Part shown: positions 8,651-64,000 of the stretch, in pieces
Layout: the number at the start of each line of letters is the position of its first letter
Position numbering within the stretch: position 1 is the stretch's first letter
NCBI GenBank assembly: GCA_029961105.1
Contig: JASBVO010000001.1
Location: forward strand, 1 to 64,000
Reading direction: 5' to 3'
Source: Micrococcus sp.
GTDB taxonomy: Bacteria; Actinomycetota; Actinomycetes; Actinomycetales; Micrococcaceae
Length of the DNA: 64,000 bases
Position numbers and translations under genes: made by a program
Notes under the pieces: model-generated
Seen by the model: the letters and a program-made list of their open reading frames with translations, nothing else
Told to the model about the DNA's origin: nothing
The model's database searches: none

Positions 8651-9942
8651 ATGAGCCTCTTCGTGCGGGGGGGTGAAGATTGCTTCGGGTGCGACGGCCG
8701 TGCAGATCGCCCAAAAGGAGCGCCGAGGTCGCCGCCCTGGTCGCGGTGGCCAAGGACCGGATCGCCGAGATGCAGCTCGTTGAGGGCCGGCAGCAGTTCG
8801 AATTCCCGCTGGCTTCGGGGCGGCCGCCCCAGGTTGGGCCGGTCGTCACCGGGACCTCATCCCAACTGCTGTGGGACTTGTTAGGGGTGGAGCCGACCCT
8901 GAAGGCCGACTTCCTCCGCGTGCTGGAGGAGATCAGGGTTCCGGCCCGTCCCTGCGAACGATCTGGCGGAGCCTGGCCAGGTGCATCGACCAAGTTGGCG
9001 GGATGGTCTGTCCAAGGTGGCCTACTCCTTCACGACGGACCAGCACGGTGGTGCCGGCTTCGGGATGGTCCTGTACGTCGTCACGACGCTCTACTTGGAG
9101 GTCAATGACGAGGACGACCCGCACAAGGTTGAGATGAGCAAGGAACGCCTGGGCGATCCGCAGATCGTGGTCGGCCTACTGGTGGACTCCGGAGGCATTC
9201 CGTTGGAGATCCACTGCTCCGGGAAACAAGGCCCAAACCTCCACCCTGCTCCCGGTGGTGCGCTCCTTCCAGGACCGCCACCAGATCAAAACCTGATCGT
9301 GGTCGGCGATGCCAGGATGGTCTGAAGCGGCGAACCTCAACGCCTTGGAGGAGGCCAGGTTCTTCTTCATCGTCGGCTCGAGGAGCACCAAGGCTCCCTA
9401 CGACCTGGCCGCGCCCCTCCAGTGCCACGACAACCACTTCACCGACGGCCAGACTTTGGAATTTCCCCGCACCATGGGCGCCGGGGCCCAGGCCCCGTGA
9501 TCGGCGGGTGATCTACCACGACTCGTTTCAGCGGGAGAAGCGGGACAACTTCACGCTGGACAAGCAGATGGAGAAGGCCGAGAAGGTCGCCAACGGCAGC
9601 CGAGCGCTCAAACGCAACCGGTTCATCAAACTCTCCGGCAAAAAACCCGGCGTGGAGTGGGGCCTGGTAGTGCGCGCCCGGCAAGTCCAGGGGCTGAAAG
9701 GCTATGTCTCCAACATCGGCCCTAAGGTCCTGGATGACCCCGCCGTGGTGGCCGCCTACCACGACCTGTGGCAGGTCGAGAGGTCGTTCCGGATGGCCAA
9801 GAGTGACATCTGGGCCCGGCCGATGTTCCACCACCAGCGTGGCTCCATCGAGGCCCACCTGACCGTGGTGGTCTGCACCCCAACCATCGATGCCGACACC
9901 CAGAACATCCTCGACCGGATCAGCAACTCAACGGGACGCTGA
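8651..9942 (+). pseudogene. Degenerate IS1634-like transposase
   Basis: Pieces in changing frames match an IS1634/IS4-superfamily transposase in order. The start, ATGAGCCTCTTCGTGCG, is broken at a run of seven G. VKIASGATAVQIAQKE follows near 8672. Then come AELQ-like AEVAALVAVAKDRIAEMQLVEG, a fragment with VLYVVTTLYLEV and MSKERLGDPQIVVGLLVD (about 9070-9190), and ANLNALEEARFFFIVGSRS near 9330. The last open stretch from 9508 carries YHDLWQVERSFRMAKSD and HHQRGSIEAHLTVVV, the conserved C-terminal glutamate region. Several frameshifts and internal losses show that it is inactive. Terminal repeats and target duplications were not identified. Confidence 0.8.
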
Positions 9943-49490: not shown

Positions 49491-50096
49491 GTGGGATTGC
49501 GGCTGTCACCAGCGGAACAGGTGCGCGTGCGCACCCGGGCCCATCCGCGCGCCCTGACCCTGCCCGTCCTGCGGTTGATGTTCATCGCCCTGGCCACCGG
49601 GTACGTGCAGGGCGTCCTGGCCCGCGGCGACCTCCACGAGGCCCTGGTCCAGGTCCGTCCGTGGTTGGCCGGCGCCGTCTGGGTGCTCGCCGCCCTGGCC
49701 CTGCTGCTCGGTTGCCTGCGGCCGGCGTGGCGGTGGCTGACGCGGACCACCGTCCTCACCAGCCTGCGGATCATCCAGCGCGCCGGTCCGGGCCGGTCCC
49801 GGGAGCGCGCCCTGCACCTGCTGGCGATCTACGACGTGAGGCTGCGCCAACGCCGGGGCCAGCGGATGGCCGGTGCGGGAGACCTGATCATCGAGCACGG
49901 GGCCGGCTCCCAGTGGGTGCTGGCTGGGATGCCGGAGGCGGTGCGGTTCCGCGAACTGATCCTGCGCGAGGTGGCCGCCCTGCGCCGGCAGGTGGCGGAG
50001 CAGGGCGCTCCGCCGTATTCGGTGTACTCCGTGTCCCCGGCGGCTCCGGCCCCGGCCTCGCCCGGCTCCGCGGCGGGGGGTGGCTTCCGTGGCTGA
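49491..50096 (+). CDS. Membrane protein with bacterial PH-like domain
   Basis: The product has 201 residues. Two membrane segments (about residues 24-43 and 55-76) are followed by a PH-like (bPH, YdbS/DUF304 type) domain: TVLTSLRIIQRAG, LAIYDVRLRQRRGQR, GDLIIEHG and WVLAGMPEAVRFREL. The tail after residue 170 is Ala/Pro/Ser-rich. The role is unknown; related proteins sit in the membrane with small-molecule or protein partners. The start is GTG 49491, with GGAAGG upstream. It is about 50 bases after birA and overlaps the cyclase gene, so it is part of the same transcript. Confidence 0.8.
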   Translation: MGLRLSPAEQVRVRTRAHPRALTLPVLRLMFIALATGYVQGVLARGDLHEALVQVRPWLAGAVWVLAALALLLGCLRPAWRWLTRTTVLTSLRIIQRAGPGRSRERALHLLAIYDVRLRQRRGQRMAGAGDLIIEHGAGSQWVLAGMPEAVRFRELILREVAALRRQVAEQGAPPYSVYSVSPAAPAPASPGSAAGGGFRG

Positions 50097-51366
50097 GGAC
50101 CTGCCCGGTGCGGGCGGTGCGGGCGCGGCCGCCGGGAGCAGCGACGAGCCGTTCCCCATCACCTCCCCCCTGCCCGTGGTGCCGGTGAGCGGCGAGCCGA
50201 CGTCACCGCGGCCGCCCCGGGAGCGCGAACCGGACGGGGCGCCGGACCCGCAGGCGGAGCCGGCGCTTCCCGAGGCGCCACCGGACACCACCGCCACCTC
50301 GTCGCTGGCCGTCCAGCAGGACCGCACCTCCTGGACCCAGGCGATCTCCACCCTCGAGACGGACCTGCTCGGCGGTCCGCGCACGCTGACCCGCCGCGAG
50401 ATGGCCGGTGAGCTCGGCGTCTCACTGATCTCCGCCCGCAAGCTCTGGCGCGCCCTGGGATTCCCGAACGTCCGGGACGGGGACCGGGCCTTCACCCCAC
50501 AGGACACCGCCGCGATCGGCACCATGATCGACCTGGTGCGCCGTGGCGTGCTCAACGAGGAGACCGCCATCTCGCTGACCCGGTCCATCGGCCAGATGAC
50601 CGACCGCATGGTCGTCTGGCAGATCGAGGCCCTGGTGGAGAACAAGATCAGCGAGGAGGGGATGACGGATCCGGAGGCCCGCCGTGCCGTGGTGGGCATG
50701 CTGCCGGAGATCATCGAGCCGCTCGAGCAGGTGATGGAGTACTCCTACCGGCGCCAGCTCAACGCAGCGCTGCAGCGCCTGACCGTCCGGGCGGAGGCCG
50801 GTCTGGCCGCCAGCGCCGCCGGCCGGGACGGGTCCGAGGACGACGCCCCGCTGCCGCTGGCCCGGGCCGTGGGCTTCGCGGACATGGTCTCCTACACCTC
50901 GCTCTCCCGGCGGATGAACGAGCGCACCCTGGCCCAGATGGTGCAGCGCTTCGAGAACAAGTGCGCCGAGATCATCTCCATCGGCGGCGGCCGCCTGGTC
51001 AAGACCGTCGGTGACGAGGTGCTGTTCAACGCCGAGACCCCGGAGGCCGGCGCGCAGATCTCGCTGGCGCTGGCCAAGGCGATGAGCGAGGACCCGGTGC
51101 TGCCCTCGGCCCGGGTGTCCCTCGTGTGGGGACGGGTGCTCTCCCGCCTCGGGGACATCTACGGCCCCACCGTGAACCTGGCCTCCCGGCTGACCGCGCT
51201 CGCCGACCCGGGCACCGTCCTGGTCGACGCGATGACCGCCCTGGCCCTGGAGGAGGACGAACGCTTCGTCCTGATCCCGCAACCGCCGCAGATGGTGCGC
51301 GGTTTCGGCGAGATCCGTCCGTCCATCCTGATGTCCGGCACCGGCGAGGGGCTCATCGTCGACTGA
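50089..51366 (+). CDS. Class III adenylate cyclase with Rv1264-like regulatory domain
   Basis: The product has 425 residues. After a disordered Pro-rich start (1-75) a helical regulatory domain (about 80-240) contains TRREMAGELGVS and GVLNEETAISLTRSIGQM, similar to the autoinhibitory pH-sensing part of Mycobacterium tuberculosis Rv1264. The cyclase domain (about 255-420) keeps the metal aspartates (GFADMVSYT and KTVGDEVLF), the lysine before GDE, and the YGPTVNLASRL stretch with transition-state Asn and Arg. It should therefore make cAMP as a dimer. The start GTG 50089 is preceded by GGGGGTGG at five bases and overlaps the bPH gene stop; GTG 50080 is an alternative. A hairpin follows the gene. 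Confidence 0.92.
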   Translation: MAEDLPGAGGAGAAAGSSDEPFPITSPLPVVPVSGEPTSPRPPREREPDGAPDPQAEPALPEAPPDTTATSSLAVQQDRTSWTQAISTLETDLLGGPRTLTRREMAGELGVSLISARKLWRALGFPNVRDGDRAFTPQDTAAIGTMIDLVRRGVLNEETAISLTRSIGQMTDRMVVWQIEALVENKISEEGMTDPEARRAVVGMLPEIIEPLEQVMEYSYRRQLNAALQRLTVRAEAGLAASAAGRDGSEDDAPLPLARAVGFADMVSYTSLSRRMNERTLAQMVQRFENKCAEIISIGGGRLVKTVGDEVLFNAETPEAGAQISLALAKAMSEDPVLPSARVSLVWGRVLSRLGDIYGPTVNLASRLTALADPGTVLVDAMTALALEEDERFVLIPQPPQMVRGFGEIRPSILMSGTGEGLIVD

Positions 51367-51374
51367 ACGGCCGC

Positions 51375-51400
51375 CCACATGGGGAGAACTCCCCATGTGG
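51375..51400 (+). terminator. Terminator hairpin after the cyclase gene
   Basis: CCACATGGGGAG and CTCCCCATGTGG form a perfect 12-base stem with a 2-base loop, nine bases after the cyclase stop. It separates the birA/cyclase unit from the giant protein gene. Confidence 0.75.
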
Positions 51401-51502
51401 TGTCGGCCTGCGCGCGCGGGGGACGGGATAGACTCGCCGGGGCGGCCAGCGTGACTGCGCAGGTCAGGGGCCGCCGGTAGTTGTCATCATCGGGGGATCA
51501 TC

Positions 51503-54500
51503 GTGAAGACAGGTTCGGGCGCCGGACGCCAGGGGGCACTGAAGGCCACGGCATTCGTCGGCGTATCCGCCGTCGCCGTCACGGGGGCCATCCTCTACCC
51601 GGGCTTCCAGACCGCGGACGTGGACCTCAACGACGGTGGCGTGTGGGTGGTCAACCGCGAGGAGAGCAAGGTCGCCCACCTCAATTACCAGTCGCAGACC
51701 CTCGACGGCGGTGTCACCACCACCATGACCGAGTACGACCTGGCGCAGCACGCCGAGCAGGTCTACCTGCGCGATCGCGAGATGGGCGCCCTGGTCACCG
51801 TGGACCCGGCCGCCTTCGAGCTGACCGATGAGAACATGCTGCCGGCCAACGCGGACTTCTCCTACGGCGAGGCCGTCGTGGCCGTGGCCGACGCCGACCG
51901 CGGGCGCGTGTACGCCGCGGGCACCGATGGACTCGGGGCGATGTCAGGGGCGGGAGCCGAGCCGCTCTACGAGGCCGAGGGGCGGGTGGCCTCGGCCGTG
52001 GGCCGGGACGACACGGTCTGGGTCGCGGACCTGGACGCCAACCTCATCAAGGGCTTCCGCCCGCTGACCGAGTCCGAGCGCCGGGAGGCGGCCGGGACCG
52101 AGCGGGTCGGCTCCGGCGCGGAGGGCGCCGGGGAGGGGGACGACGGCGGGGCGTCCGGTGACGAGGCCGCCTCGCCCGCGCAAGCGGCGGGCTTCCGCGA
52201 GATCGTCTCCACCGAGGTCGACGGTCTGGAGGGCTTCACCGACCCGCAGGTGTCCGCCGTCGGGGACACCGGCGTCGTCTTCGACGCGGCCTCCGGCACC
52301 CTCGTGACCTCCGAGGGCCGGAGCTCCACCGTCGTCGACCCGGCCGACGGGAAGCTCCAGGCGCCCGGACCGGAGGCGCCCGGCGCCGTCGTCGCGCTGG
52401 CCAACAAGACCGCCACCGTCCCGCTGGACGGCGGTGAGGCGACGTACTCCACCGTGGAGGCCACCGGTGCCCCCGTCCAGCCGGTCCGCGTCGGCACCTG
52501 CACCCACGCCGCCTGGCAGGGCTCGGGCCTGTACCAGCGGGACTGCGACGACGACGGCCAGGACGTCACCGAGCGCGTCCCCGAGATCCCCGCCGGGGCC
52601 CAGCTGGTCTTCCGCGTCAACCGGGACGTGGTGGTGCTCAACGACGTCTCGCAGGGCAACACCTGGCTGGTCCAGGACGCCATGAAGATCGTCAACAACT
52701 GGGCGGACCTGGAACCGCCCAAGGGCGAGGGCGAGCAGCAGGAGGAGGAATCGGACGAGATCACCGACTCCATCGAGCTGCCGGACCGCCAGGAGGAGAA
52801 CCAGAAGCCGGTGGCCCGGGACGACTCCTTCGGGGTCCGGGCCGGCCGGACGACCGCGCTGCCCGTGCTGTTCAACGACGTGGACCCGGACGGGGACCTG
52901 CTGACCGCCGCCCTGAAGGGCGACCAGCCCGGGGTCGGGACGCTGCAGCCCATCCATGACAGCACCGGCTTCCAGCTCGTCGTCCCGGACGATGCCACCG
53001 GCACCGCCTCCTTCGCCTACGAGGCCGACGACGGCCGCGGCGGCACGGACACCGCCCGGGCCACCGTCCGGGTGGTCCCGGAGGGCCAGAACAGCGCCCC
53101 GGAACAGGAACGCGTCACGACCCTGCGCGTGCAGGCCGGCACCGAGGTGTCCCAGAACATCCTCACCGACTGGCAGGACCCCGACGGGGACGACCTGCAG
53201 CTGATGGGGGCGGTCTCCGAGGACGGGGACGTGGTCCGGGTGCGTCCGGACGGGGTGCTGACCTTCGAGGACGTCGGCAAGTCCACGGGCACCAAGGAAT
53301 TGGAGATCACCGTCTCCGACCGCCGTGAGTCCGCCACGGGCCGCGTTGTCATCGAGGTGCTGCCCGAGGGGGCCGCCCCGCCGATCACCGCCACGGACCA
53401 CGTCACCGTGAACCTGGGGGAGGAGACCACCTTCTCGCCCCTGGCGAACGACTTCGATCCCACCGGTTCCGAGCTGCGCCTGGCCCACGTGGACCCGGTC
53501 CCCGGTGCCGAGGTCGAGATGAACCCGGACACCGGCACGGTGTCGTTCCGCTCCGGGCAGGAGCGGACCTTCTACCTGAAGTACGTCGCCACCAACGGCC
53601 CCGCCTCAGCCCCGGGACTCATCCGGGTGGACGTCAGGGACCCGGAGAAGAACCCCGGCGCGCCGATCGCCGTGCGGGACGTGGCCCTGGTCCCGGCCGG
53701 CGGCAACGTCCTGGTCAACGTCCTGGGCAATGACACCGACCCCGAGGGCGGGGTCCTGGTGGTGCAGCGGGTGGACGTGCCGGAAGGCGCGCCGATCGGG
53801 GTGTCCATCGAGCGCAACGCCGTGCTGCGCGTGACCGACCAGAGCGGCCTGGCCGAGCCGTTGACCTTCTCCTACACCGTGACCAACGGGACCGCAGCCT
53901 CCACCGGTGAGGTCACGGTGATCCCGATCCCGGCGCCGGAGTCGATGGAACCGCCGCGGCCCAACCCGGACACCGCCGTCGTACGGGCCGGTGACGTGGT
54001 CACCGTGCCCGTCCTGGAGAACGACGTGCACCCCAACGGGGCCGAGCTGACGCTCGAGCCGGAACTCGCCGAGGGAGTGGACGAGTCCGACGGACTGATC
54101 TCGGTGGCGGACAACTTGGTCCGCTTCCGCGCCGGACAGGAGCCGGGTACGGTCTCCGCGGTGTACACCGTCTCCGGACCGGACGGCCAGGAGGCCTCCG
54201 CCCGCGTCACGTTCCACGTCACCGCGGTGGACCTGGAGAACAACAGCCCGCCCACGCCCGAGCGCGTGGAGGGGCGCGTCTTCGCCGGGAACACGGTGGC
54301 CGTCCCGATCCCGCTCAGCGGGATCGATCCGGACGGAGACTCGGTCTCCCTCGTGCAGCTGGAGACCCCGCCGTCCCTGGGCACCGCGAAGGTGACCGCG
54401 AACTCGATCGAGTACACCGCAGCCGAGGGCACCGCCGGCACGGACACCTTCACCTACGTGGTGGAGGACCGGCTCGGTGCCCGCGCCACGGGCACGATCA

Positions 54501-57500
54501 TGATCGGCATCGCCCCGGTGGCCAAGGAGAACGCCCCGCCGGTGGCGGTCAACGACTCGATCCGGGTCCAGCCCGCCCGGCCGGTGGCCGTGGACGTGCT
54601 GGCCAACGACACCGACGCCGACGGCGATGAATTGCGCTTCCTCGAGACGCTCGAGGCCACCGAGGGCTCGGACGCCGCCCTGGTGGACGGGCGCATCCTG
54701 CTGACCTCCCCGGCGGAGGCGGGCTTCGTCACCGTGCGCTACGGCATCACCGACGGCCGCGGCGGCACGGACACCGGCACGCTCACCGTGGAGGCGGACC
54801 CGCAGGCCCCGCTGCGGGCGCCGATCGCGCGGGACGACCGCGTGTCCTTCCAGGAGACCGTGGGCAAGGACGAGGTCACCGTCGACATCCTGGGCAACGA
54901 CGAGGACCCGGACGGCACGCTGGAGGACCTGGCGGTGGACCTGCCGGACAACCCCGACGGCGTGACGCTGGGCGAGGATGACCAGCTGGTGGTCCCGGTG
55001 GAGTCGAACCCGCAGATCATCACGTACCGTCTCACCGACGCCGACGACCTGTCCTCCTATGCCTTCGTGATCGTGCCGGGCACCGGCGAGGCCCGGCCCG
55101 CGCTGCGTTCCGATGCCCCGCTGGAGGTCACGGCCGGGGAGGACCTCGTCCTCGACGTCGGCGACCTCGTGGTCGTTCGCGACGGACGCACCCCGCGGAT
55201 CACCGAGGAGGCGAAGGTGACCTCCTCGCCGCAGTCGGAGACCGACCTGGTGCGCTCCGCCACCGAGATGGTCTTCCGCGCACCCACCGACTACGCCGGT
55301 CCCGCGTCGGTCAGCTTCGAGGTCACGGACGGATCGGGCCCGGACGACCCGGACGGGCTGAAGTCCGTGCTGAGCCAGCCCATCCGGGTGATCCCGCCGC
55401 CCGGTGAGGAGTTCAACACCCCGCCGAGCCTGCAGTCCAACTCCCTCGAGGTCGCCGCCGGAGGCGACCCCGCCCGGCTGGACCTGGCCCAGGCCGCCTC
55501 CGACCCGGACCCCCAGGATGCCGGCAACCTGCAGTTCGCCCTCGGCGAGGTGGCCGTCGAGGGGGTGGACGTGAGCCTCGACGGGTCGGTGCTCTCCGCG
55601 CGGGCGGACACCCGCACGGAGAAGGGCACCCAGGGATCCGTGCAGGTCACCGTGACGGACGGCAGGTCGGACCCGGTGCCGGCACGCGTGTCCATCTCCG
55701 TCAATGCCTCCGACCGCGAACTCGCCGTGGCCAATCCGGACGTTGTCCCCGACGCACACCAGGGCCGCGCCGAGACGGTGCCGGTGCTGGCCAACGACGT
55801 CAACCCCTTCGAGGGGGAGGGGCCGCTGACCGTCCGTGCGGCGTCCGCACCGGCCCACCAGGGCCGGGCCCACGTCTCCGGCGAGAACGTGGTCGTGACG
55901 CCGAATGAGGACTTCGTCGGCCAGATGCGGGTGCAGTACACGGTCGGGGACCTGACCGAGGATCCGGCCCGCGAGGTCCAGGGCACGATCACCCTCAACG
56001 TCAAGGGCGCCCCCGAGGCACCGGGGGTTCCCCGCGTGGAGTCCGTGGGCGACGGCGAGGTCGTGCTGACGTGGGACGCCCCGGCGAACAACGGCTCGCC
56101 GATCACCGGGTACACCGTGTCCGCCTCCGGGGTGAGCCAGCAGTGCCCGGCCACCACGTGCACGATCACGGGACTCACGAACAACCAGGAGTACACGTTC
56201 ACCGTGACGGCGACGAACGATGTCGGGGAGTCCGAGCCGTCCGTGCCCTCCGGGCCGGCGCGTCCGGACGTCGAACCGGAGCAGCCGGCTCCGCCCACGG
56301 GCACCGACGGGGACGGCACGGTGGACCTGTCCTGGACGGCACCGGTGAACCGCGGCTCGCCGATCACCTCCTACACGGTGGAGATCTCCCCGGCCCCGCC
56401 GAACGGTGTCAGCCAGCGGTCCGTGTCCGGCACCTCCATGACGTGGGACGGACTGACGAACGGCACCGCGTACCAGTTCCGGATCCAGGCCGTGAACGAC
56501 GCCGACCGCCCCTCCGACTTCTCCGGCTGGTCGTCGTCCATCACCCCGGCCGGCAAGCCGCTCCAGCCGCAGGCCCCGGTGGCCTCGCGGGCCGAGTCGG
56601 CGGTCAACGGTGGCGTGGCGAACGTCCGCTGGACGGCGCCGGACGGCAATGGCGCGACCGTCACGACGTACGACCTGCACGTCTACGAGGGCGGGGCCCT
56701 GGACCGGAGGATCCCCGGCATCACGGGGACATCGCAGCAGGTGACCGGTCTGGACACCACCTCGTCGTACTCCTTCGCCATCGTGGCGCACAACCGGGTG
56801 GGCGCCTCGGAGCCCTCGGGGCGCTCGACGGCGGTCACGCCGTACGGACGCCCCAAGGCTCCGTCCACGCCCGTCATCTCGGCCACCGGACAGAACAACC
56901 GCATCCTGGTGGAGTTCACGCCCGGATCGGCGAACGGTTCACCGATCACCGGGTACCAGTACCAGGTCAGCGGGGGCGGCTGGCAGGGCCTGCCCGGTCC
57001 CGGCAGCACGATCGACGTCGGAGCCAACGGCAAGAACGTCACCGTGACGGTGCGCGCCCTGAACGCGGCCGGTGCGGGCGATCCGTCGGCGGCCTCGAAC
57101 CAGACGAGTGCCTATGGGCCGGTCAAGGACGCGGCGAACGTCAAGGCGACCGGGGGCGACCAGAAGGTCTCGTTCACCTGGAACCCGAACGTCCGGGACT
57201 ACGAGAACGGCCGGGGCCTCACCATGACGGTGACGGTGGACGGCCAGCGGGTGGATGCCGCCCGCGGCTCGTTTACCAAGGAGGTGGGGCACAGCACCAA
57301 GTCCACGGTCATCGTCCGGGTGGACAGCACGTCGGACTCGTCGGCCCAGCAGTCCAAGCAGTGGACCGCGTCGGCCACCTCCAACGAGGCGCCGCCGCCG
57401 CCGGACCCCAGCCTGACGCTCTCGCGCGGATCCTCCGCCTACTACGCGGGCAACTGCACCATCAGGTGCTACCACATGGGCCTCAATGCCACGAACATGG

Positions 57501-57709
57501 AGCCCGGCACGCACACGGTGTACTGCTACTACCGGGGCGGCCCCGGCAGCGGTGGCGGGAACCACTTGTGGTCGGACAACGTCAGCATCACCGTCCGCTC
57601 CGACGGAAGCTTCTCGGGCGAGGCGAAGTGCGCCATCGGCGACGGGTATGCGGACCGGGCCTGGGTCGTCGTGAACGGGGTCAAGTCCAACGAGGTCAGA
57701 CCCTGGTAG
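51503..57709 (+). CDS. Giant membrane-anchored cadherin-like/Ig and fibronectin III repeat protein
   Basis: The product has 2068 residues. An N-terminal membrane segment (about 14-32) is followed by a propeller-like or strand-rich region to about residue 400 (GGVWVVNREESK, then QLVFRVNRDVVVLNDV, NTWLVQDAMKIVNNW). From about 433 to 1500 there are about eleven repeats of about 95 residues with the pattern PVA-DD-V-AG-VLxND-DPDGD (for example LFNDVDPDGD, LANDTDADGD, LGNDEDPDGT), acidic calcium-type loops of cadherin-like/Ig folds. From about 1500 to 1950 come four or five FnIII domains (GSPITGYTVSASG, GLTNNQEYTFTVTA). The last about 100 residues have four cysteines (NCTIRCYH, VYCYY, EAKCAI). No sortase or cell-wall-binding motif was seen. 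The start is GTG 51503 behind GGGGGA. It heads the MoxR/DUF58/transglutaminase cluster; it could be a fibre or scaffold that these proteins assemble. Confidence 0.88.
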   Translation: MKTGSGAGRQGALKATAFVGVSAVAVTGAILYPGFQTADVDLNDGGVWVVNREESKVAHLNYQSQTLDGGVTTTMTEYDLAQHAEQVYLRDREMGALVTVDPAAFELTDENMLPANADFSYGEAVVAVADADRGRVYAAGTDGLGAMSGAGAEPLYEAEGRVASAVGRDDTVWVADLDANLIKGFRPLTESERREAAGTERVGSGAEGAGEGDDGGASGDEAASPAQAAGFREIVSTEVDGLEGFTDPQVSAVGDTGVVFDAASGTLVTSEGRSSTVVDPADGKLQAPGPEAPGAVVALANKTATVPLDGGEATYSTVEATGAPVQPVRVGTCTHAAWQGSGLYQRDCDDDGQDVTERVPEIPAGAQLVFRVNRDVVVLNDVSQGNTWLVQDAMKIVNNWADLEPPKGEGEQQEEESDEITDSIELPDRQEENQKPVARDDSFGVRAGRTTALPVLFNDVDPDGDLLTAALKGDQPGVGTLQPIHDSTGFQLVVPDDATGTASFAYEADDGRGGTDTARATVRVVPEGQNSAPEQERVTTLRVQAGTEVSQNILTDWQDPDGDDLQLMGAVSEDGDVVRVRPDGVLTFEDVGKSTGTKELEITVSDRRESATGRVVIEVLPEGAAPPITATDHVTVNLGEETTFSPLANDFDPTGSELRLAHVDPVPGAEVEMNPDTGTVSFRSGQERTFYLKYVATNGPASAPGLIRVDVRDPEKNPGAPIAVRDVALVPAGGNVLVNVLGNDTDPEGGVLVVQRVDVPEGAPIGVSIERNAVLRVTDQSGLAEPLTFSYTVTNGTAASTGEVTVIPIPAPESMEPPRPNPDTAVVRAGDVVTVPVLENDVHPNGAELTLEPELAEGVDESDGLISVADNLVRFRAGQEPGTVSAVYTVSGPDGQEASARVTFHVTAVDLENNSPPTPERVEGRVFAGNTVAVPIPLSGIDPDGDSVSLVQLETPPSLGTAKVTANSIEYTAAEGTAGTDTFTYVVEDRLGARATGTIMIGIAPVAKENAPPVAVNDSIRVQPARPVAVDVLANDTDADGDELRFLETLEATEGSDAALVDGRILLTSPAEAGFVTVRYGITDGRGGTDTGTLTVEADPQAPLRAPIARDDRVSFQETVGKDEVTVDILGNDEDPDGTLEDLAVDLPDNPDGVTLGEDDQLVVPVESNPQIITYRLTDADDLSSYAFVIVPGTGEARPALRSDAPLEVTAGEDLVLDVGDLVVVRDGRTPRITEEAKVTSSPQSETDLVRSATEMVFRAPTDYAGPASVSFEVTDGSGPDDPDGLKSVLSQPIRVIPPPGEEFNTPPSLQSNSLEVAAGGDPARLDLAQAASDPDPQDAGNLQFALGEVAVEGVDVSLDGSVLSARADTRTEKGTQGSVQVTVTDGRSDPVPARVSISVNASDRELAVANPDVVPDAHQGRAETVPVLANDVNPFEGEGPLTVRAASAPAHQGRAHVSGENVVVTPNEDFVGQMRVQYTVGDLTEDPAREVQGTITLNVKGAPEAPGVPRVESVGDGEVVLTWDAPANNGSPITGYTVSASGVSQQCPATTCTITGLTNNQEYTFTVTATNDVGESEPSVPSGPARPDVEPEQPAPPTGTDGDGTVDLSWTAPVNRGSPITSYTVEISPAPPNGVSQRSVSGTSMTWDGLTNGTAYQFRIQAVNDADRPSDFSGWSSSITPAGKPLQPQAPVASRAESAVNGGVANVRWTAPDGNGATVTTYDLHVYEGGALDRRIPGITGTSQQVTGLDTTSSYSFAIVAHNRVGASEPSGRSTAVTPYGRPKAPSTPVISATGQNNRILVEFTPGSANGSPITGYQYQVSGGGWQGLPGPGSTIDVGANGKNVTVTVRALNAAGAGDPSAASNQTSAYGPVKDAANVKATGGDQKVSFTWNPNVRDYENGRGLTMTVTVDGQRVDAARGSFTKEVGHSTKSTVIVRVDSTSDSSAQQSKQWTASATSNEAPPPPDPSLTLSRGSSAYYAGNCTIRCYHMGLNATNMEPGTHTVYCYYRGGPGSGGGNHLWSDNVSITVRSDGSFSGEAKCAIGDGYADRAWVVVNGVKSNEVRPW

Positions 57710-57824
57710 CCACGGCCCGCGCCCGGGACGGCGGCACCAGCCGGGCCGCAACCATCACCACCACCAGCACCGCTGCGCGCAGGACCACTGTGAGCAGCAC
57801 CACCAGTGAAGGGGACAACGCACC

Positions 57825-58883
57825 ATGACCATGACCACCGAACAGGCGGAGTGGTTCGCCGGGACGTTCGAGAAGATCTCGGACAACATCGGCCAGGCCA
57901 TCCTGGGCAAGGAGGACGTCATCTCCCTGGTCCTCACCGCCATGCTGACGGACGGCCACGTGTTGCTGGAGGACGCCCCCGGCACCGGCAAGACCATGCT
58001 CGCCCGGTCACTGGCGGCCACGGTGAAGGGCACCCACTCCCGCATCCAGTTCACCCCGGACCTGCTGCCCTCGGACGTCACCGGCGTGACCATCTACGAC
58101 CAGAAGTCCCAGGAGTTCGAGTTCCACCGCGGTCCGATCTTCGCCAACATCGTGCTGGCCGATGAGATCAACCGTGCCTCGCCCAAGACCCAGTCCGCAC
58201 TGCTGGAGGTCATGGAGGAGGCGAGGGTGACGGTGGACGGCGTCACCTACCCGAACGAGCGCCCCTTCATGGTGATCGCCACCCAGAACCCGATCGAGCA
58301 GGCCGGCACCTACAAGCTGCCGGAGGCCCAGCTGGACCGCTTCCTGATCAAGACCTCCATCGGCTACCCGGACCGCAGCTCCACCGTCGAGCTGCTCTCC
58401 GGCGCCGCCACGAAGGACCGCTCCGGTGCCCTGAGCCCGATCATCACCACCCAGGCCATCCGGGACATGACCGAGCTGGCCACCACCGTCCACGTAGACG
58501 GTGCCGTGCTGAACTACATCGCCGAGCTCACCGAGGAGACCCGGCACGCCGACGAGACCCGGCTGGGCGTCTCGGTCCGCGGCGCCATGGCCATGGTGCG
58601 CGCCGCCAAGGTCCGCGCCGCCTCGCAGGGACGCAACTACGTGCTGCCGGACGACGTCAAGGACCTGGCCCCGCACGTGTGGACCCACCGGCTGGTGCTG
58701 GACCCCGAGGCGGAGTTCGCCGGGGCCACCGCCGCGGCCGTGCTGACCCGCGTCCTGGCCCAGGTGGGCGCTCCGCAGCACCGCGCCGGGGCACCGGTCC
58801 CCGCGGGGGCCGCGGCGGCCGCCGGTGCCGGCGGGTCCGGGAACGACGGGGTGCGGGGCGGCTCGACCGCCGCCGGGGCCTGA
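57825..58883 (+). CDS. MoxR-family AAA+ ATPase
   Basis: The product has 352 residues. Walker A is EDAPGTGKTMLAR at about residue 50. Walker B is IVLADEINRASPKTQSALLEVMEE at about 112-135. Sensor 1 is ATQNPIEQAGTY, and the AAA lid follows (VRGAMAMVRAAK, then VLPDDVKDLAPHVWTHRL). The last 40 residues are Ala/Gly-rich. MoxR ATPases act as chaperones that help insert metals or assemble partners, usually with a VWA or DUF58 protein, here encoded next. The start is ATG 57825 (or 57831), 115 bases after the giant protein gene. Confidence 0.93.
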   Translation: MTMTTEQAEWFAGTFEKISDNIGQAILGKEDVISLVLTAMLTDGHVLLEDAPGTGKTMLARSLAATVKGTHSRIQFTPDLLPSDVTGVTIYDQKSQEFEFHRGPIFANIVLADEINRASPKTQSALLEVMEEARVTVDGVTYPNERPFMVIATQNPIEQAGTYKLPEAQLDRFLIKTSIGYPDRSSTVELLSGAATKDRSGALSPIITTQAIRDMTELATTVHVDGAVLNYIAELTEETRHADETRLGVSVRGAMAMVRAAKVRAASQGRNYVLPDDVKDLAPHVWTHRLVLDPEAEFAGATAAAVLTRVLAQVGAPQHRAGAPVPAGAAAAAGAGGSGNDGVRGGSTAAGA

Positions 58884-58884
58884 G

Positions 58885-60198
58885 GTGCCGACGTCGCAGA
58901 TGGCCGCGGAACGAGAGCCCCGTCAACGACGCACCCGGGTGGCCGGAGCCCTGGGGGTCCGGGCTCGGCGGCTGGCGGAGTCCGCCGCGATCGCCACCGG
59001 GCCGGCGCGGGAGTCCGCCGCCGGCTGGTGGAAGCGGTACGCCCGCCCGGTCGCCGAGGTGGTCTCCCCGCTGGGGTGGATCGTGCTGGCCGTGACGGCG
59101 ACCGCCTGGATCGTCGGCCTGGCGCTGGGCTGGGCCGAGGCGCTCGTCGCCGGCCTGGTCGGCGTCCTGCTGCTGCTGCTGGCCATCGGGTTCATCCTCG
59201 GCCGGTCCTCCTACGCGGTGGTCCTCGACCTCGCCCGCTCGCGGGTCGCCGTCGGGGACCGGGCGGTCGGCGCGATCGAGGTGACCAACACCGCGGACCG
59301 GGCCCTGCTGCCGGTGGCCATGGAGCTGCCCGTGGGGCGGGCCACCGCCGTGTTCCAGCTGCCCCGGATGCGTCCGGGCGCCGTGCACGAGGACCTGTTC
59401 ACCATCCCCACGCACCGCCGCGCCGTGATCGTCGTGGGTCCGGTGCGCTCGGTGCGCCAGGACCCGCTGGGGCTGCTGCGCCGCCAGCTGAAATGGACGG
59501 AGCCGCAGGACCTGTTCGTGCACCCGCGCACCGTGGCGCTGCAGGGATCCTCGGCCGGGTTCATCCGCGACCTGGAGGGGTTGCCGACGAAGGACCTGTC
59601 CAGCGCCGACGTCTCCTTCCACGCGTTGCGGGACTACGTGCCCGGCGATGACCGCCGGCACATCCACTGGAAGACGGTGGCGCGCACGAACAAGCTCATG
59701 GTCCGCCAGTTCGAGGAGACGCGGCGCGCCCACCTGGCCATCGCCCTGTCCACGAACACCTCCGAGTACGCCACCGAGAACGACTTCGAGCTGGCCGTCT
59801 CCGTGGCAGCCTCGATCGGCCTGGAGGCCTTCAAGGAGCAGCGCAATCTCTCCATCCGCACCCACGCCGGACCGGTCCACACGGAGACCGGCCGCAACAT
59901 GCTCGATGACCTGACACGGATCGAGGGCAGGCCGCTGCGCGGCACCAGCCTGGACGTGGCCCGCGAGACCGCGGACAGCGTGCCCAACGCCTCGGTGTTC
60001 TTCCTCATCACCGGCAACCAGCCCAGCCCGGGGGACCTGCGCCGGGCGACCAACGTGGTGCCGCCCGGGGTCCGCGCCTTCGCCATCCGCTGCGCCCACG
60101 GCCTGGAGACCGGGCGGGCCAGTATCGGTGACCTCACGGTGCTCTCCATCGGAGACCTCCAGGACCTGGGCCTGGCCCTGCGGAAGGCGGCGGCATGA
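58885..60198 (+). CDS. DUF58 membrane protein
   Basis: The product has 437 residues. A basic N-terminal stretch precedes two membrane segments (about 65-85 and 88-110). Then comes a strand-rich domain and the DUF58 signature: GLPTKDLSSADVSFHALRDYVPGDDRRHIHWKT split over residues about 232-262, followed by a VWA-like part (LAIALSTNTSEYA, then VFFLITGN). DUF58 proteins are regular partners of MoxR ATPases. The start chosen is GTG 58885, two bases after the moxR stop; ATG 58900 is possible. Its stop overlaps the start of the transglutaminase-like gene by 4 bases, so the three proteins are made together. Confidence 0.9.
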   Translation: MPTSQMAAEREPRQRRTRVAGALGVRARRLAESAAIATGPARESAAGWWKRYARPVAEVVSPLGWIVLAVTATAWIVGLALGWAEALVAGLVGVLLLLLAIGFILGRSSYAVVLDLARSRVAVGDRAVGAIEVTNTADRALLPVAMELPVGRATAVFQLPRMRPGAVHEDLFTIPTHRRAVIVVGPVRSVRQDPLGLLRRQLKWTEPQDLFVHPRTVALQGSSAGFIRDLEGLPTKDLSSADVSFHALRDYVPGDDRRHIHWKTVARTNKLMVRQFEETRRAHLAIALSTNTSEYATENDFELAVSVAASIGLEAFKEQRNLSIRTHAGPVHTETGRNMLDDLTRIEGRPLRGTSLDVARETADSVPNASVFFLITGNQPSPGDLRRATNVVPPGVRAFAIRCAHGLETGRASIGDLTVLSIGDLQDLGLALRKAAA

Positions 60199-62702
60199 CG
60201 GCGCGGGCACGCACGGAGCGGCGGGGGACGGGCCTGCGCCACCCCTGGGGCCAGGTGGGCGTGGACGCCGCCGTGCTGGTGGTGCTGCTGGGCCTGGGCA
60301 TGCTCGGTTTCCATGACACCTTCGCCGGGGACCCCCGGTACCTGCTGGCCGGCCTCGGCGGGATCGTCCTGGGGCTGGCCGTGGCCCTGGCCAGTGCCTA
60401 CCGGCGGTGGGGCGTGTGGCTGACTTCCGGCGTGGTGGTCCTGGCCTACCTGGTCTTCGGCTTCGCCCTGGCCACCCCGGCGGAGTCGGCCGGCGGGTTC
60501 CTGCCCAGTGCGGACGCCCTGCTGGTGCTGATCACCGCGCCGGTGACCACGTGGAAGGACATCCTGACCGTGGCGGCCCCGGTAGGCGTCAACGGGGGCA
60601 TGCTGGTGGCTCCCTACCTGTCCGGACTGCTGACCTCGGTGGTGGCCGGCGTGCTGGCCTGGCGGGTGCGGGTCCCGTACTGGACCCTGGTCCCGGTCCT
60701 GGCGATGACCGTCGTCGGCATCCTGTTCGGCACCAAGGACGCCCCCATGGCGCTGATGCGCGGCATGGTGCTGGTGATGGCCGCCGTCGCGTGGCTGGCC
60801 TGGCGCCGGCACCGGATGCGGGTCCACGGCACCCGCGCGCCCGCCGACACGACCACGGTGACCCATCCGGCCACCGCCCGCCGGCTGGTCTGGCGCCGGG
60901 TGGGCATGGGTGCCGCGGTGCTGGCCGTGGCCGGGCTGCTGACCGCGGCGGCCTCGCCGCTGCTGCTGCAGGACCAGGACCGCAAGGTGCTCCGGGACGT
61001 GGTGGACCCGCCGATCGAGCTGTTCGACTATCCGAGCCCGCTGATGAAGTTCCGGCAGTACGTGAAGGACCAGCGCGAGGAGGTCCTGTTCACGGTGGAC
61101 GGCCTCCCGGAGGGACAGCGCGTCCGCCTGTCCGCCCTGGACGCCTATGACGGCATGGTCTACACCGTGAACCCGCAGGCCGGTGGCAACTTCTCGCCGG
61201 TCGGGGACGCCTCCCGCCTCTCGGGTGCCGAGGCCCCGGAGCTGCCGAACCGTCAGAACGGGACGCTGGACATCACCATCGGCGCCTACGACGGCGTCTG
61301 GCTGCCCGGCGGCGGCAAGCTCAACGGTGTGGCCCTGGCCGGGCCGCGGGCCGGTGAGCTGTCCCGGTCCCTGTACTACAACGACGACAACGAGACCGCC
61401 CTGTCCACCATCCCGCTGCAGTCCGGGGACTCCTACACCGCGGAGGTCGTCTACCCGGTGCAGGTGAGCCCGGAGGAACTCGAGGACCAGGACTTCGCCC
61501 AGGTCGTCATGCCGGAACTGACGGGGGTGCCACAGGTGGTGCCCGAGAAGGCGGCCGAACTGACCGGCAGCCAGGACTCCCCGTTCGGCATCGCCAGCGG
61601 GCTGGCCTCCACCCTGCACGAGTCCGGGGCGTTCTCCAACGGCCGCGAGGGCGAGGTGACCTCGCTGTCCGGGCACTACGCCGGGCGCATCACCCAGTTG
61701 CTGGACAACGAGGAGTGGATCGGCGACGACGAGCAGTACGCCGTGGCGATGGCGCTGATGGCCCGTTCCCTGGACATCCCCGCCCGCGTGGTGATGGGGT
61801 TCTACCCCGAGAACTACCCGGAGGGCGGCGGTCCCGTCCAGATCAAGGGCAAGGACGTCCACGCCTGGGTGGAGGTGAACTTCGAGAACACCGGCTGGGT
61901 GGCCATGGACCCCACCCCGGACAAGGACAACATCCCGACCCCGCCGCAGCAGGAGCCCCAGTCCACGCCGAAGCCGCAGGTGCTGCAGCCACCGCCGCCG
62001 CCGCAGGAGCAGGCCGACCTGCCGCCGGACACCGCCCCGGAGCCTCAGGACGCCGAGCAGGAGGAGCGCTCCTGGTGGGACCAGTGGGGACCCGTGGTGA
62101 TGATCATCGTGTACTCGATGGTCCCGGTCATCATCCTGATGATCCCGCTACTGGTCATCGCCCTGCTCAAGGGCCGGCGGCGCAAGCGGCGCCGACGGGC
62201 GGACACCCCGGCCGCGCAGGTCTCCGGCGGCTGGTCGGAGGTCCTGAGCCTGGCCACGGACCTGGGCTCGGAACCGCAGCGAACCGGCACCCGGCGCGAG
62301 CACGCCGCCGCCCTGGGCTCCGCCTTCCCGACGACGGCGGCCGGCACCACCCTGCTGGCCCGGCGCGCCGACCAGGCCATCTTCGGCCCCGGCGAGCCGA
62401 CGGAGGCCCAGGTGGCCGACTACTGGGAACGGGTGGACGAGAACATCGCCGGCATCCGCGGGTCCGTGAGCGGCTGGCGGCGCCTGCGGGCGAAGTTCTC
62501 CCCGCGGTCCCTCCTACTGGAGGCCCGGGCACGGCGTCGTCAACGCCGCCTGGTGCAGCGCCAGCGGCGGCTGGCCCGCCGCGCGGCAGCCGCCGAGCGC
62601 CGGGCGGGGGAGCGCACGGCCGAGCGGCAGTCCCGCACGGCCCGGCGTGGCGGCGGCACCCGAGCAGTCCGTACAGTGGACGACCAAGCGAGCAAGGAAT
62701 AG
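60195..62702 (+). CDS. Transglutaminase-like membrane protein (TgpA type) with catalytic Cys replaced
   Basis: The product has 835 residues. Several membrane segments lie in residues 20-270 (DUF3488-like). An extracytoplasmic region with the transglutaminase-like core runs to about 590, then a Pro/Gln-rich linker, one more membrane segment (about 635-660), and a basic cytoplasmic tail very rich in Arg (760-810). In active enzymes the core reads GDCEQ; here it reads G510-D-D512-E-Q-Y, so the nucleophilic Cys is Asp. The later parts of the triad are kept: KDVHAWVEV (His) and AMDPTPDKDN (Asp). It starts at an ATGA overlap with the DUF58 gene. It probably acts as a binding or structural protein; hydrolase activity is doubtful. 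Confidence 0.88.
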   Translation: MTARARTERRGTGLRHPWGQVGVDAAVLVVLLGLGMLGFHDTFAGDPRYLLAGLGGIVLGLAVALASAYRRWGVWLTSGVVVLAYLVFGFALATPAESAGGFLPSADALLVLITAPVTTWKDILTVAAPVGVNGGMLVAPYLSGLLTSVVAGVLAWRVRVPYWTLVPVLAMTVVGILFGTKDAPMALMRGMVLVMAAVAWLAWRRHRMRVHGTRAPADTTTVTHPATARRLVWRRVGMGAAVLAVAGLLTAAASPLLLQDQDRKVLRDVVDPPIELFDYPSPLMKFRQYVKDQREEVLFTVDGLPEGQRVRLSALDAYDGMVYTVNPQAGGNFSPVGDASRLSGAEAPELPNRQNGTLDITIGAYDGVWLPGGGKLNGVALAGPRAGELSRSLYYNDDNETALSTIPLQSGDSYTAEVVYPVQVSPEELEDQDFAQVVMPELTGVPQVVPEKAAELTGSQDSPFGIASGLASTLHESGAFSNGREGEVTSLSGHYAGRITQLLDNEEWIGDDEQYAVAMALMARSLDIPARVVMGFYPENYPEGGGPVQIKGKDVHAWVEVNFENTGWVAMDPTPDKDNIPTPPQQEPQSTPKPQVLQPPPPPQEQADLPPDTAPEPQDAEQEERSWWDQWGPVVMIIVYSMVPVIILMIPLLVIALLKGRRRKRRRRADTPAAQVSGGWSEVLSLATDLGSEPQRTGTRREHAAALGSAFPTTAAGTTLLARRADQAIFGPGEPTEAQVADYWERVDENIAGIRGSVSGWRRLRAKFSPRSLLLEARARRRQRRLVQRQRRLARRAAAAERRAGERTAERQSRTARRGGGTRAVRTVDDQASKE

Positions 62703-62707
62703 GAACC

Positions 62708-64000
62708 GTGCAGAAAACCCTCAACCTGGTCAACGCACCGGCCGGCAGGCGGCTGGCGGCCTGGCTGATCGACCAGATCGTTCCCGCGGTGGCCGTGGGC
62801 ATCGTCTACGCGGTCACCTTCCCCGCCGTGCTGGCCCGCGCCGGCAGCGCCCAGCAGGACGCGCTGGCCACGTTCTTCCTGGGCATGCTCGTCGCCGGCG
62901 TGCTGTCGCTGGCCTACGCCGTCTGGCTGTGGGGCTGGCAGGCGTCGGCCGGCAAGACGCCGGGTCACCTGCTGCTGGGGCTGCGCATCACCTCCGAGGA
63001 CGGCACCCCCGCCGGCTGGGGACCGATCTTCCTGCGCTCCGTGCTGATCTGGGTCAGCGGCCTGGTCCCCGTGGTCGGGCCTGTCCTGATGCTGCTGTCC
63101 AACATCTGGGACACCAACCACCAGCGCCAGGGCTGGCATGACAAGGTGGCACGCACTCTCGTGCTGGACGTGAACACCGGACGCAACCCGCTGACGACCG
63201 GCGGCCTGTACGGACCGTCCACGTTCGCCCCCGGCGGCCTGCGCCCCGGTGACCCGGGGCACCCCGAGACGGGCGTGACCACCCCGGCGGTCTCCCGCTG
63301 GCCCGCGTTCAACCCGGCCGTGGCGGCCGGACCCATCACCGCGGTCCCCGGGGCCCCGGGGAACCACTCTTCGGACCCGTCCGGCGAGGCGTCCCCGGAC
63401 GCCTCGGCCTCCCTGCCGTCCCCGCCCGCGCCGACGTCGGCCCCGGCCCCCGGCGCCGTGCCCGCCCGCTCCGAACCTGCCCGCCCCGAACCCGTGCACG
63501 CCGCGGCAGTGCGTCCGGCCGCAGCCGAGGCCCGGGAGCCCGCCACCGCGCCGGCGTCCGCCCCTGCCGCCTCCGGGCGCTCCTCGGGCTACCGGGAGGA
63601 CCAGGTGGTGCTCGTGGGCGGTGCCGAGGAGCCCGCCGATCCGGACGAGGAGCTGGGCTCCACCCAGCTGCGCCGGCGGTCCGCCGGTCCCTCGGCGGTG
63701 AAGCTGCGCTTCGACGACGGCCAGAGCCATGAACTCAGCGGCTCGGCGCTGGTGGGACGCAATCCCGCGGCGGCCGCCGGCGAGACGGTGGACCTGCTCA
63801 TCCCGTTCGCGGACATGGGACGGTCCGTGTCCAAGACGCACCTGCACCTGACGGTGGACTCCACGGGCGTCTGGGTGACGGACCGCAACTCCACCAACGG
63901 CTCCGGCATCACCCCGCGCGGCGGCACCCGCCAGCGCCTGGAACCAGGCCAGCCGGTGCTCGCGCCGGTCGGGGCCACCGTCCACTTCGGCGACCGTACC
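62708..64000 (+). CDS. RDD-FHA protein (partial, cut by window end)
   Basis: The frame is open for 431 codons to the last base of the window, so the C-terminus is missing. Residues about 10-150 are an RDD membrane domain with three segments (RRLAAWLIDQIVPAV near the start, GKTPGHLLLGLRI). Residues about 155-320 are a Pro/Ala/Ser-rich linker. From about 335 an FHA domain begins: LVGRNP, RSVSKTHLHL (S-x-x-H) and DRNSTNGSGI, the phosphothreonine-binding loops. FHA domains read Ser/Thr-kinase signals, so the machine is probably under kinase control. The start is GTG 62708, five bases after the upstream stop, with AAGGA at a nine-base distance overlapping the end of that gene. Confidence 0.88.
   Translation, partial: MQKTLNLVNAPAGRRLAAWLIDQIVPAVAVGIVYAVTFPAVLARAGSAQQDALATFFLGMLVAGVLSLAYAVWLWGWQASAGKTPGHLLLGLRITSEDGTPAGWGPIFLRSVLIWVSGLVPVVGPVLMLLSNIWDTNHQRQGWHDKVARTLVLDVNTGRNPLTTGGLYGPSTFAPGGLRPGDPGHPETGVTTPAVSRWPAFNPAVAAGPITAVPGAPGNHSSDPSGEASPDASASLPSPPAPTSAPAPGAVPARSEPARPEPVHAAAVRPAAAEAREPATAPASAPAASGRSSGYREDQVVLVGGAEEPADPDEELGSTQLRRRSAGPSAVKLRFDDGQSHELSGSALVGRNPAAAAGETVDLLIPFADMGRSVSKTHLHLTVDSTGVWVTDRNSTNGSGITPRGGTRQRLEPGQPVLAPVGATVHFGDRT

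Follow-up and report, generated by a model that had tools for sequence, protein, structure and literature searches.

The 64,000-nucleotide window analysed here (positions 1 to 64,000, forward strand, of contig JASBVO010000001.1 in Micrococcus sp. assembly GCA_029961105.1; part of contig 1 of a 3.3-Mb genome) closes on a run of genes headed by a giant surface protein, and this run is almost certainly a homologue of the PFNA operon of Bifidobacterium. We see in it the form that an old actinobacterial operon takes in Micrococcaceae. The PFNA papers brought up by literature searches come from one group and are cited here and below from excerpts of their text (PMC8430577, PMC6803598, PMC10688814, PMC12607495). 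In those excerpts the operon's genes are pkb2, fn3, aaa-atp (MoxR), duf58, tgm, prpC, a hypothetical gene and fha; the genes are co-transcribed in B. longum, where Pkb2 phosphorylates MoxR (PMC8430577); and the operon or its FN3 protein is said to occur solely in Bifidobacterium. An earlier sequence-only reading of the window had considered it not established what MoxR-DUF58 pairs do with a repeat scaffold of this size in actinobacteria; the association of MoxR with the giant was already in print as the bifidobacterial operon (excerpts of PMC8430577).

The two systems resemble each other in gene set, core order, length of the giant, position of its FN3 domains and MoxR clade. Like PFNA, the window locus carries fn3, MoxR, duf58 and tgm in that core order, and a Ser/Thr kinase belongs to its run of genes. 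The FN3 protein of B. longum is 1,994 amino acids (aa) long with FN3 domains at 1494-1581 and 1586-1671 (PFNA papers, excerpts); the window giant, at 2,068 aa, has Pfam matches at 1506-1583 (fn3) and 1613-1668 (a related Fn3 model). Common descent is indicated by Bifidobacterium MoxR rows that fall inside the operon clade and by homology between the N-terminal parts of the giants. Three loci in our collection (L101, L102, L104), assigned to Bifidobacterium because their giants are the same as those of named records, have the published order of kinase, giant, MoxR, DUF58, Tgm and PP2C, followed in L102 and L104 by an FHA-type gene. There are differences, too. The kinase of the window operon sits at the 3' end rather than first, as it also does in other loci of the window's family, whereas it lies upstream in Bifidobacterium and several other families; this is a change of order, not of kind. 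In addition, the window operon has an RDD domain fused to FHA and an additional gene without a Pfam match, its giant has more complete acidic triplets, and its genome holds an orphan second giant.

All five forward genes named in the sequence-only reading are open on the plus strand with their domains matched in Pfam, and its giant Ig/FnIII protein of about 2000 residues is indeed there (51503-57709, +, GTG start, 2,068 aa), with matches far above the Pfam cut-offs (Big_9, E 8e-86; fn3, E 2e-37). It is followed by the operon-clade MoxR AAA+ ATPase (57825-58883, +; AAA_3, 214 bits; clade by tree), the DUF58 protein (58885-60198, +; PF01882, 50 bits), the TgpA-like membrane protein with a pseudo-transglutaminase domain, Tgm (60195-62702, +; Transglut_core 66 bits, TgpA_N 42 bits), and a protein joining an RDD membrane domain to an FHA domain (62708-64000, +; RDD 81 bits, FHA 27 bits), whose gene ends at 64021 and so overruns the window by 21 bases. 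Beyond it, in the same orientation, lie genes for a PP2C, a 666-aa FHA protein, a 568-aa Ser/Thr kinase and a 267-aa protein, bringing the total to nine; the PP2C and kinase that the earlier reading had proposed to look for downstream are thus both present. The ninth product has no Pfam match and looks, by eye, like FHA plus winged helix. Spacing is tight much as that reading had described it: the ATGA overlap of DUF58 with Tgm and the 5 bases between Tgm and RDD-FHA stand, whereas the "2-base" gap between MoxR and DUF58 shrinks to 1 base if DUF58 starts with the GTG at 58885. The giant and MoxR are separated by 115 bases, and from RDD-FHA onward three junctions with 4-base overlaps are followed by a 45-base gap before the ninth gene. 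A simple scan of 51000-64000 found no terminator-like sites on the plus strand and no promoter-like sites on either strand.

The idea that PFNA is confined to Bifidobacterium can be rejected. A profile of the giant's N-terminal part, built from 15 rows, matched 178 of 297 sampled genomes of the order at E 1e-5, spread over 54 of 95 genera. In a phylum-wide sample the same part matched 24 of 396 genomes at E 1e-6. Twelve of these matches are strong: eight come from the same order, counting the genome of the window itself, and four from other classes (G170, G244, G144, G133), with giants in frames of 2,121-2,268 aa and MoxR, DUF58 and Tgm behind them. The remaining 12 lie at 5e-14 or weaker, eleven in frames below 1,700 aa and one, in G149, in a frame of 2,456 aa. 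A scan of named genomes, from which all named-locus counts derive and which covers the best 80 of 393 confirmed matches, gave 79 loci, 42 of them from Bifidobacterium, towards which the scan leans because a Bifidobacterium row headed the alignment, and 37 from elsewhere, including Microbacterium, Arthrobacter, Pseudarthrobacter, Cellulomonas, Actinotalea, Jonesia and Cryobacterium. Once 6 truncated loci had been dropped, 69 of the 73 with at least 2.5 kb downstream carry MoxR, DUF58 and Tgm, comprising 40/40 in Bifidobacterium, there also with the kinase, and 29/33 of the others with room for the set. At L223, L225 and L232 the three genes follow some 6 kb later, as they would after a second giant, and at L229 (Microbacterium yannicii) there is none behind the giant.

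This spread bears directly on the published view of what the system is for, in which the giant acts as a receptor for host cytokines and evolution shaped the operon to let gut bacteria and the immune system communicate. Binding of TNF-alpha by a fragment of B. longum FN3, and operon expression induced by TNF-alpha, speak for it (PFNA papers, excerpts). Against it stands the presence of this operon in genera such as Microbacterium, Arthrobacter, Cellulomonas, Actinotalea and Jonesia, and also in further classes of the phylum. Since most of the non-Bifidobacterium genera that carry it are taken to be environmental, an origin for the mammalian immune system is unlikely, although bifidobacteria may have put the operon to such use later; as an account of the operon as a whole, we judge host-immune sensing very improbable. 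A system that the excerpts treat as bifidobacterial and shaped by host immunity now appears widespread in a large bacterial order, and the question becomes what actinobacteria detect with a stalk of 2,000 residues, no longer how bacteria of the gut sense cytokines.

That giant, MoxR and DUF58 belong together as one unit, as the sequence-only reading had it, is borne out by gene order; giants found mostly without the set, which would have counted against that reading, are not what the loci show. Among 95 distinct giants, MoxR and Tgm lie directly 3' of the giant in 75 (DUF58 was also scored in 74), and because of this the arrangement is not chance; three more (L093, L096, L109) are followed by DUF58-Tgm without MoxR. 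The 17 with no set directly behind them are, by our reading of the tables, 7 first members of tandem pairs and 10 orphans, and all are extra copies except one whose genome has the operon on another contig. These giants were picked from search hits, mostly as long open frames, after two duplicate partial giants had been dropped; frames were kept from 1,400 aa upwards (above 1,700 aa for named genomes), so that the counts exclude broken or short giants (4/79 named) and the shorter frames of the order-wide profile search. MoxR itself tells a similar story. In the tree, 52 operon MoxRs, rows that we chose, fall on one side of a branch (99/96) and 22 others on the other side, two rows having long branches. 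Among 39 relatives, 22 have a giant and an operon-type MoxR, 21 of these at 57% identity or more; the MoxR of G027, at 47%, groups with the clade in the tree. The other 17 have no giant by single-sequence search, 11 of them also none by the order-wide profile search; four of the 17 gave no MoxR match, and the best MoxRs of the remaining 13, all at 51% identity or less and included among the 22 outsiders, fall outside the operon clade. Where operons are duplicated, giant and MoxR point to the same nearest neighbour in 4 of the 6 operons checked.

One could imagine that these genes are neighbours without shared function, kept side by side by operon inertia, and the 10 orphan giants without the set would fit such a scenario. 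Against it, set and giant co-occur even where they are unlinked, as in genome G012, which has the set on contig 16 (L145) without a giant and its only detected giant alone on contig 8 (L043). None of the 17 giant-less relatives shows a MoxR of the operon clade (13 judged by tree on the best match, 4 without a match), and we regard this explanation as very improbable.

Several loci merit a remark in their own right. G012 is a natural separation of operon and giant, which could bear on action in trans. The orphan giant of the window's own genome (L028:10261-16416, contig 27, minus strand) encodes 2,051 aa, is 46% identical by tblastn and lacks a MoxR set in its vicinity; the genus's orphan giants find their best neighbours among themselves, at 0.70-0.95 identity in the Ig region, as against 0.51-0.52 to the operon giant. 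G261 has three separate giant operons (L130, L131, L132), each complete with a MoxR, DUF58, Tgm and kinase. In L055 (G003) the giant, Tgm and one FHA gene each match in at least two separate pieces, possibly owing to frameshifts in the assembly.

What might such a unit do? The reading that we prefer, and to which we give about an even chance, is that of a membrane-anchored, wall-spanning receptor or adhesin that is handled by MoxR-DUF58 and the pseudo-transglutaminase and coupled to phospho-signalling. The giant would be anchored in the membrane via its N-terminus, and its N-terminal domain would sit at the membrane beside the TgpA-like protein's pseudo-transglutaminase domain. A stalk of fixed length, built from eleven Ig and about four FnIII domains, would cross the cell wall, and its tip would meet the outside, be it another cell, a surface or a ligand. 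MoxR and the DUF58 protein would remodel the membrane complex, the pseudo-transglutaminase serving as a binding partner and not as an enzyme. The kinase, through its small ectodomain, would report the state of the stalk or complex and act on MoxR, as published for Bifidobacterium Pkb2; FHA proteins would dock on the phosphate and PP2C would reset the system. The sequence-only reading had inferred assembly driven by the ATPase and sensed through FHA; the operon's own kinase is the more obvious sensor.

The architecture of the giant fits a stalk. It starts with a hydrophobic segment at about aa 15-37 (51545-51613, +), a probable signal anchor that recurs in 162/168 rows and is preceded by net positive charge in 164/168 (170 rows, less 2 with short N-termini). 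No LPxTG motif was found in the last 60 residues of any of the 170 rows, and none has a C-terminal transmembrane (TM) segment. Judged by sequence, we favour a giant held in the membrane by its N-terminus; full-length FN3 is called membrane-bound in the excerpts of PMC12607495. Next come an N-terminal domain that is possibly a beta-propeller (aa 39-430; 51617-52792, +; profile self-repeat P 2.7e-5, probability 74%), eleven Ig/cadherin-like domains with a net charge of -108 (aa 431-1502; 52793-56008, +) and four FnIII domains (aa 1503-1874; 56009-57124, +; Pfam fn3, and profile similarity of Fn1 to Fn2, Fn3 and Fn4), all boundaries having been set by eye. Each of the eleven Ig domains is at least 70% filled in 164/164 distinct long-frame giants (6 duplicate rows were dropped for the distinct counts of giants and Tgm), and domain order stays fixed even as identity to the window protein drops to 27%. 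Ectodomain length has a median of 1,989 residues, with 10-90% limits of 1,920-2,038 and a full range of 1,480-2,221. With about 4 nm per domain, the stalk would be a rod some 60 nm long, which might suffice to span an actinobacterial wall. An LPxTG-anchored adhesin with variable repeats, which we also considered, is rejected by the 0/170 LPxTG motifs and the eleven Ig domains in 164/164. As an aside, the giant of L044 has a longer C-terminus (3' end on the minus strand, near 9850) with what looks by eye like a dockerin-type acidic repeat.

The Tgm protein looks like a pseudoenzyme. Its transglutaminase core matches PDB entries 6g49 and 6g4h (E 4e-7) of the TgpA protein-glutamine gamma-glutamyltransferase, and together with the TgpA_N match this upholds the transglutaminase-fold membrane protein of the sequence-only reading, minus its catalytic Cys. 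In the window protein that column holds Asp512 (codon 61728-61730, +), as placed by alignment with the paralogue L006 from the same genome, which has Cys. Across the family the column is Asp, Ser, Glu, Gly or Ala and Cys in 0/144 distinct Tgm rows with a residue at that place, none of which has a Cys within three columns of the position either. The column is anchored on the own-genome TgpA paralogue (GYC there); the match to 6g49 begins just after it, and the window's own Tgm was possibly counted twice, as open reading frame and as query. Unlike in TgpA, the His and Asp columns are not kept: they are His in 55/146 rows and Asp in 73/146, with the full triad in none. In the excerpts of the PFNA papers the tgm product is called a putative transglutaminase or a presumed cysteine protease, and a literature search on an inactive transglutaminase alongside MoxR listed one paper, the mycobacterial review PMC12067865. 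The absence of the catalytic Cys argues against this enzyme hypothesis, and with no complete Cys-His-Asp in any row we reject an active transglutaminase or cysteine protease.

In MoxR, Walker A (PGTGKT) and Walker B (DE) are invariant in 152 rows. DUF58, which we take to be a vWA-like fold, has mostly Ser in the metal-site column and Asp in 31/154 rows; the column is unanchored on own-genome paralogues and we claim nothing from it. To our knowledge, the targets of MoxR-DUF58 pairs are poorly known. The review PMC12067865 says as much for mycobacteria, in the part excerpted here. The giant now offers itself as a candidate substrate. The kinase of the window operon has a TM segment and a 114-aa ectodomain, and an ectodomain with two Cys, mostly of 103-137 aa, is present in 52/57 rows, including Bifidobacterium L101, L102 and L104. 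These 57 are the rows that show a TM segment among the 59 of 69 kinase rows with at least 400 aa; some genes appear twice (own and query, L096/L097), and rows with no or one Cys include frames cut by the end of the locus. The PFNA papers, as excerpted, stress the variable sensory region of the kinase.

A number of observations nonetheless weigh against the receptor that we have sketched. An AxA motif follows the hydrophobic segment in 53/168 rows, and for that reason the giant may be cleaved and released, so that the membrane anchoring on which the sequence-only reading leaned holds as regards the hydrophobic segment but less surely as regards retention. Calling the N-terminal domain a propeller is weak: it has no Pfam match in the window protein, and its profile gave nine PDB matches, all weak, the best (E 0.046) to a surface-layer protein; seven of the nine we take to be propeller proteins and two not. 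Because three of 95 giants lack MoxR behind them and ten are orphans, MoxR may not be needed locally. Two of the six duplicated operons have no matching neighbours, and the correlation between giant and MoxR distances (r 0.70, 51 pairs) is uncorrected for shared ancestry. Finally, no observation sets kinase and giant side by side, and the resemblance of the kinase ectodomain to FnIII comes from one weak profile match (P 6e-5, 65%), suggestive and not used as proof.

Might the giant instead be purely structural? The sequence-only reading had pointed to DPDGD loops, and on this model calcium bound there would stiffen a fibre assembled by the ATPase, strengthening the envelope without any sensing. 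The charge of -108 in the Ig region and the constant domain number fit. Seven acidic DxDxD triplets occur in the window giant, and calcium binding by the Ig region is plausible. Complete triplets are found in 67-98% of rows outside the Bifidobacterium set at Ig1, 2, 6, 7 and 8, a group in which a few further Bifidobacterium rows are left; at Ig2 and Ig6 both groups have the triplet complete in 85% and 98% of rows. At Ig1, Ig7 and Ig8, by contrast, 67-80% of the other rows have it complete and 0 named Bifidobacterium rows do, and Ig4 and Ig10 are weak everywhere, being rarely complete in either group. Moreover, a pure fibre needs neither a fast-evolving tip nor a kinase of its own, and we consider it unlikely.

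The tip in question comprises a weakly FnIII-like segment and the C-terminal segment (aa 1875-2068; 57125-57706, +). Across seven genus orthologues, mean identity in these last two segments is 56% and 43%, compared with 73-91% in the N-terminal, Ig and FnIII domains, and the same two segments are also lowest in the Bifidobacterium and Microbacterium sets. In three of four pairs from the window's genus, nonsynonymous divergence (dN) at the tip is 0.43-0.54 as against 0.00-0.03 in Ig1-6; the fourth pair, L029-L031, has 0.06. Synonymous divergence (dS) climbs in 4/4 pairs, starting at Fn1-2 or Fn3-4, from 0.18-0.25 (MoxR 0.16-0.21) to 0.64-1.55 at the tip. Keeping in mind that alignment error inflates both tip dN and dS, a fair reading of these sequences is that the distal end may have been exchanged between lineages in the window's genus, because fast substitution alone should not raise dS. 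Outside these pairs the picture is mixed: the same rise is seen in one of two orphan-giant pairs and little in the other, five very near Bifidobacterium pairs show no tip excess, and in 9/11 pairs that are more distant the tip has a higher dN than any other of the six segments, mostly without a clear step in dS.

Such a tip invites the idea of a recognition receptor proper, in which the variable end separates kin from non-kin or meets phage and competitors, and the kinase converts contact into a response. The contrast in dN and the rise in dS, as would be left by tip exchange, are what one would expect. Yet three of the four genus pairs belong to one trio and are not independent, tips are similar in one of the four and in one of the two orphan-giant pairs, the very near Bifidobacterium pairs lack an excess, and relaxed constraint or poor alignment of the tip would give a similar picture. 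We hold this version to be distinctly unlikely. The more sweeping proposal, that of a general actinobacterial contact receptor in which a wall-spanning eleven-Ig ruler shows a tip exchanged among lineages in the manner of a recognition allele, while the pseudo-transglutaminase and a MoxR-DUF58 motor at its foot relay engagement to a dedicated kinase with a small, conserved ectodomain, is speculative and strikes us as rather improbable; were it true, the operon known for host-immune sensing would have specialised late from a machine that senses kin or competitors. Leaving function aside, several features go beyond the PFNA literature as excerpted here: a transglutaminase core lacking its catalytic Cys, a stalk fixed at eleven Ig domains, a step in the evolution of the tip, and a kinase ectodomain that is conserved. 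A fixed stalk with a fast-evolving tip makes for a concrete, testable receptor model.

Other known systems resemble the window operon in part. Within the same genome, contig 30 has MoxR near a TgpA-like gene and contig 21 has MoxR near a DUF58 gene, but these MoxRs fall outside the operon clade and no giant was scored beside them; the contig-30 TgpA also differs in that it retains the catalytic Cys together with the His, the Asp column holding Glu. The mycobacterial moxR1 operon has been likened to PFNA via MoxR and DUF58 (review PMC12067865, excerpted), a likeness that we take from that description, the MoxR tree having no row chosen from mycobacteria. As for the ternary conflict systems of MoxR, vWA and beta-propeller (PF20030, bpMoxR), the window MoxR exceeds the bpMoxR cut-off (46.8 vs 27 bits). 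There it is the vWA protein that carries a fused propeller (PMC7159879, excerpted), whereas a propeller-like domain here would form the start of the giant; the DUF58 protein gives DUF58 alone in Pfam at E 0.1, with no propeller fusion, and we reject membership. PADLOC, run on seven proteins, gave many kinase-type matches for the kinase, one for PP2C, two weak ones for MoxR and none for the giant, DUF58, Tgm or RDD-FHA, so that an anti-phage defence system is not supported.

Upstream of the giant, at 50080-51366, the window encodes what appears by eye to be an adenylate/guanylate cyclase with a regulatory N-terminal part.

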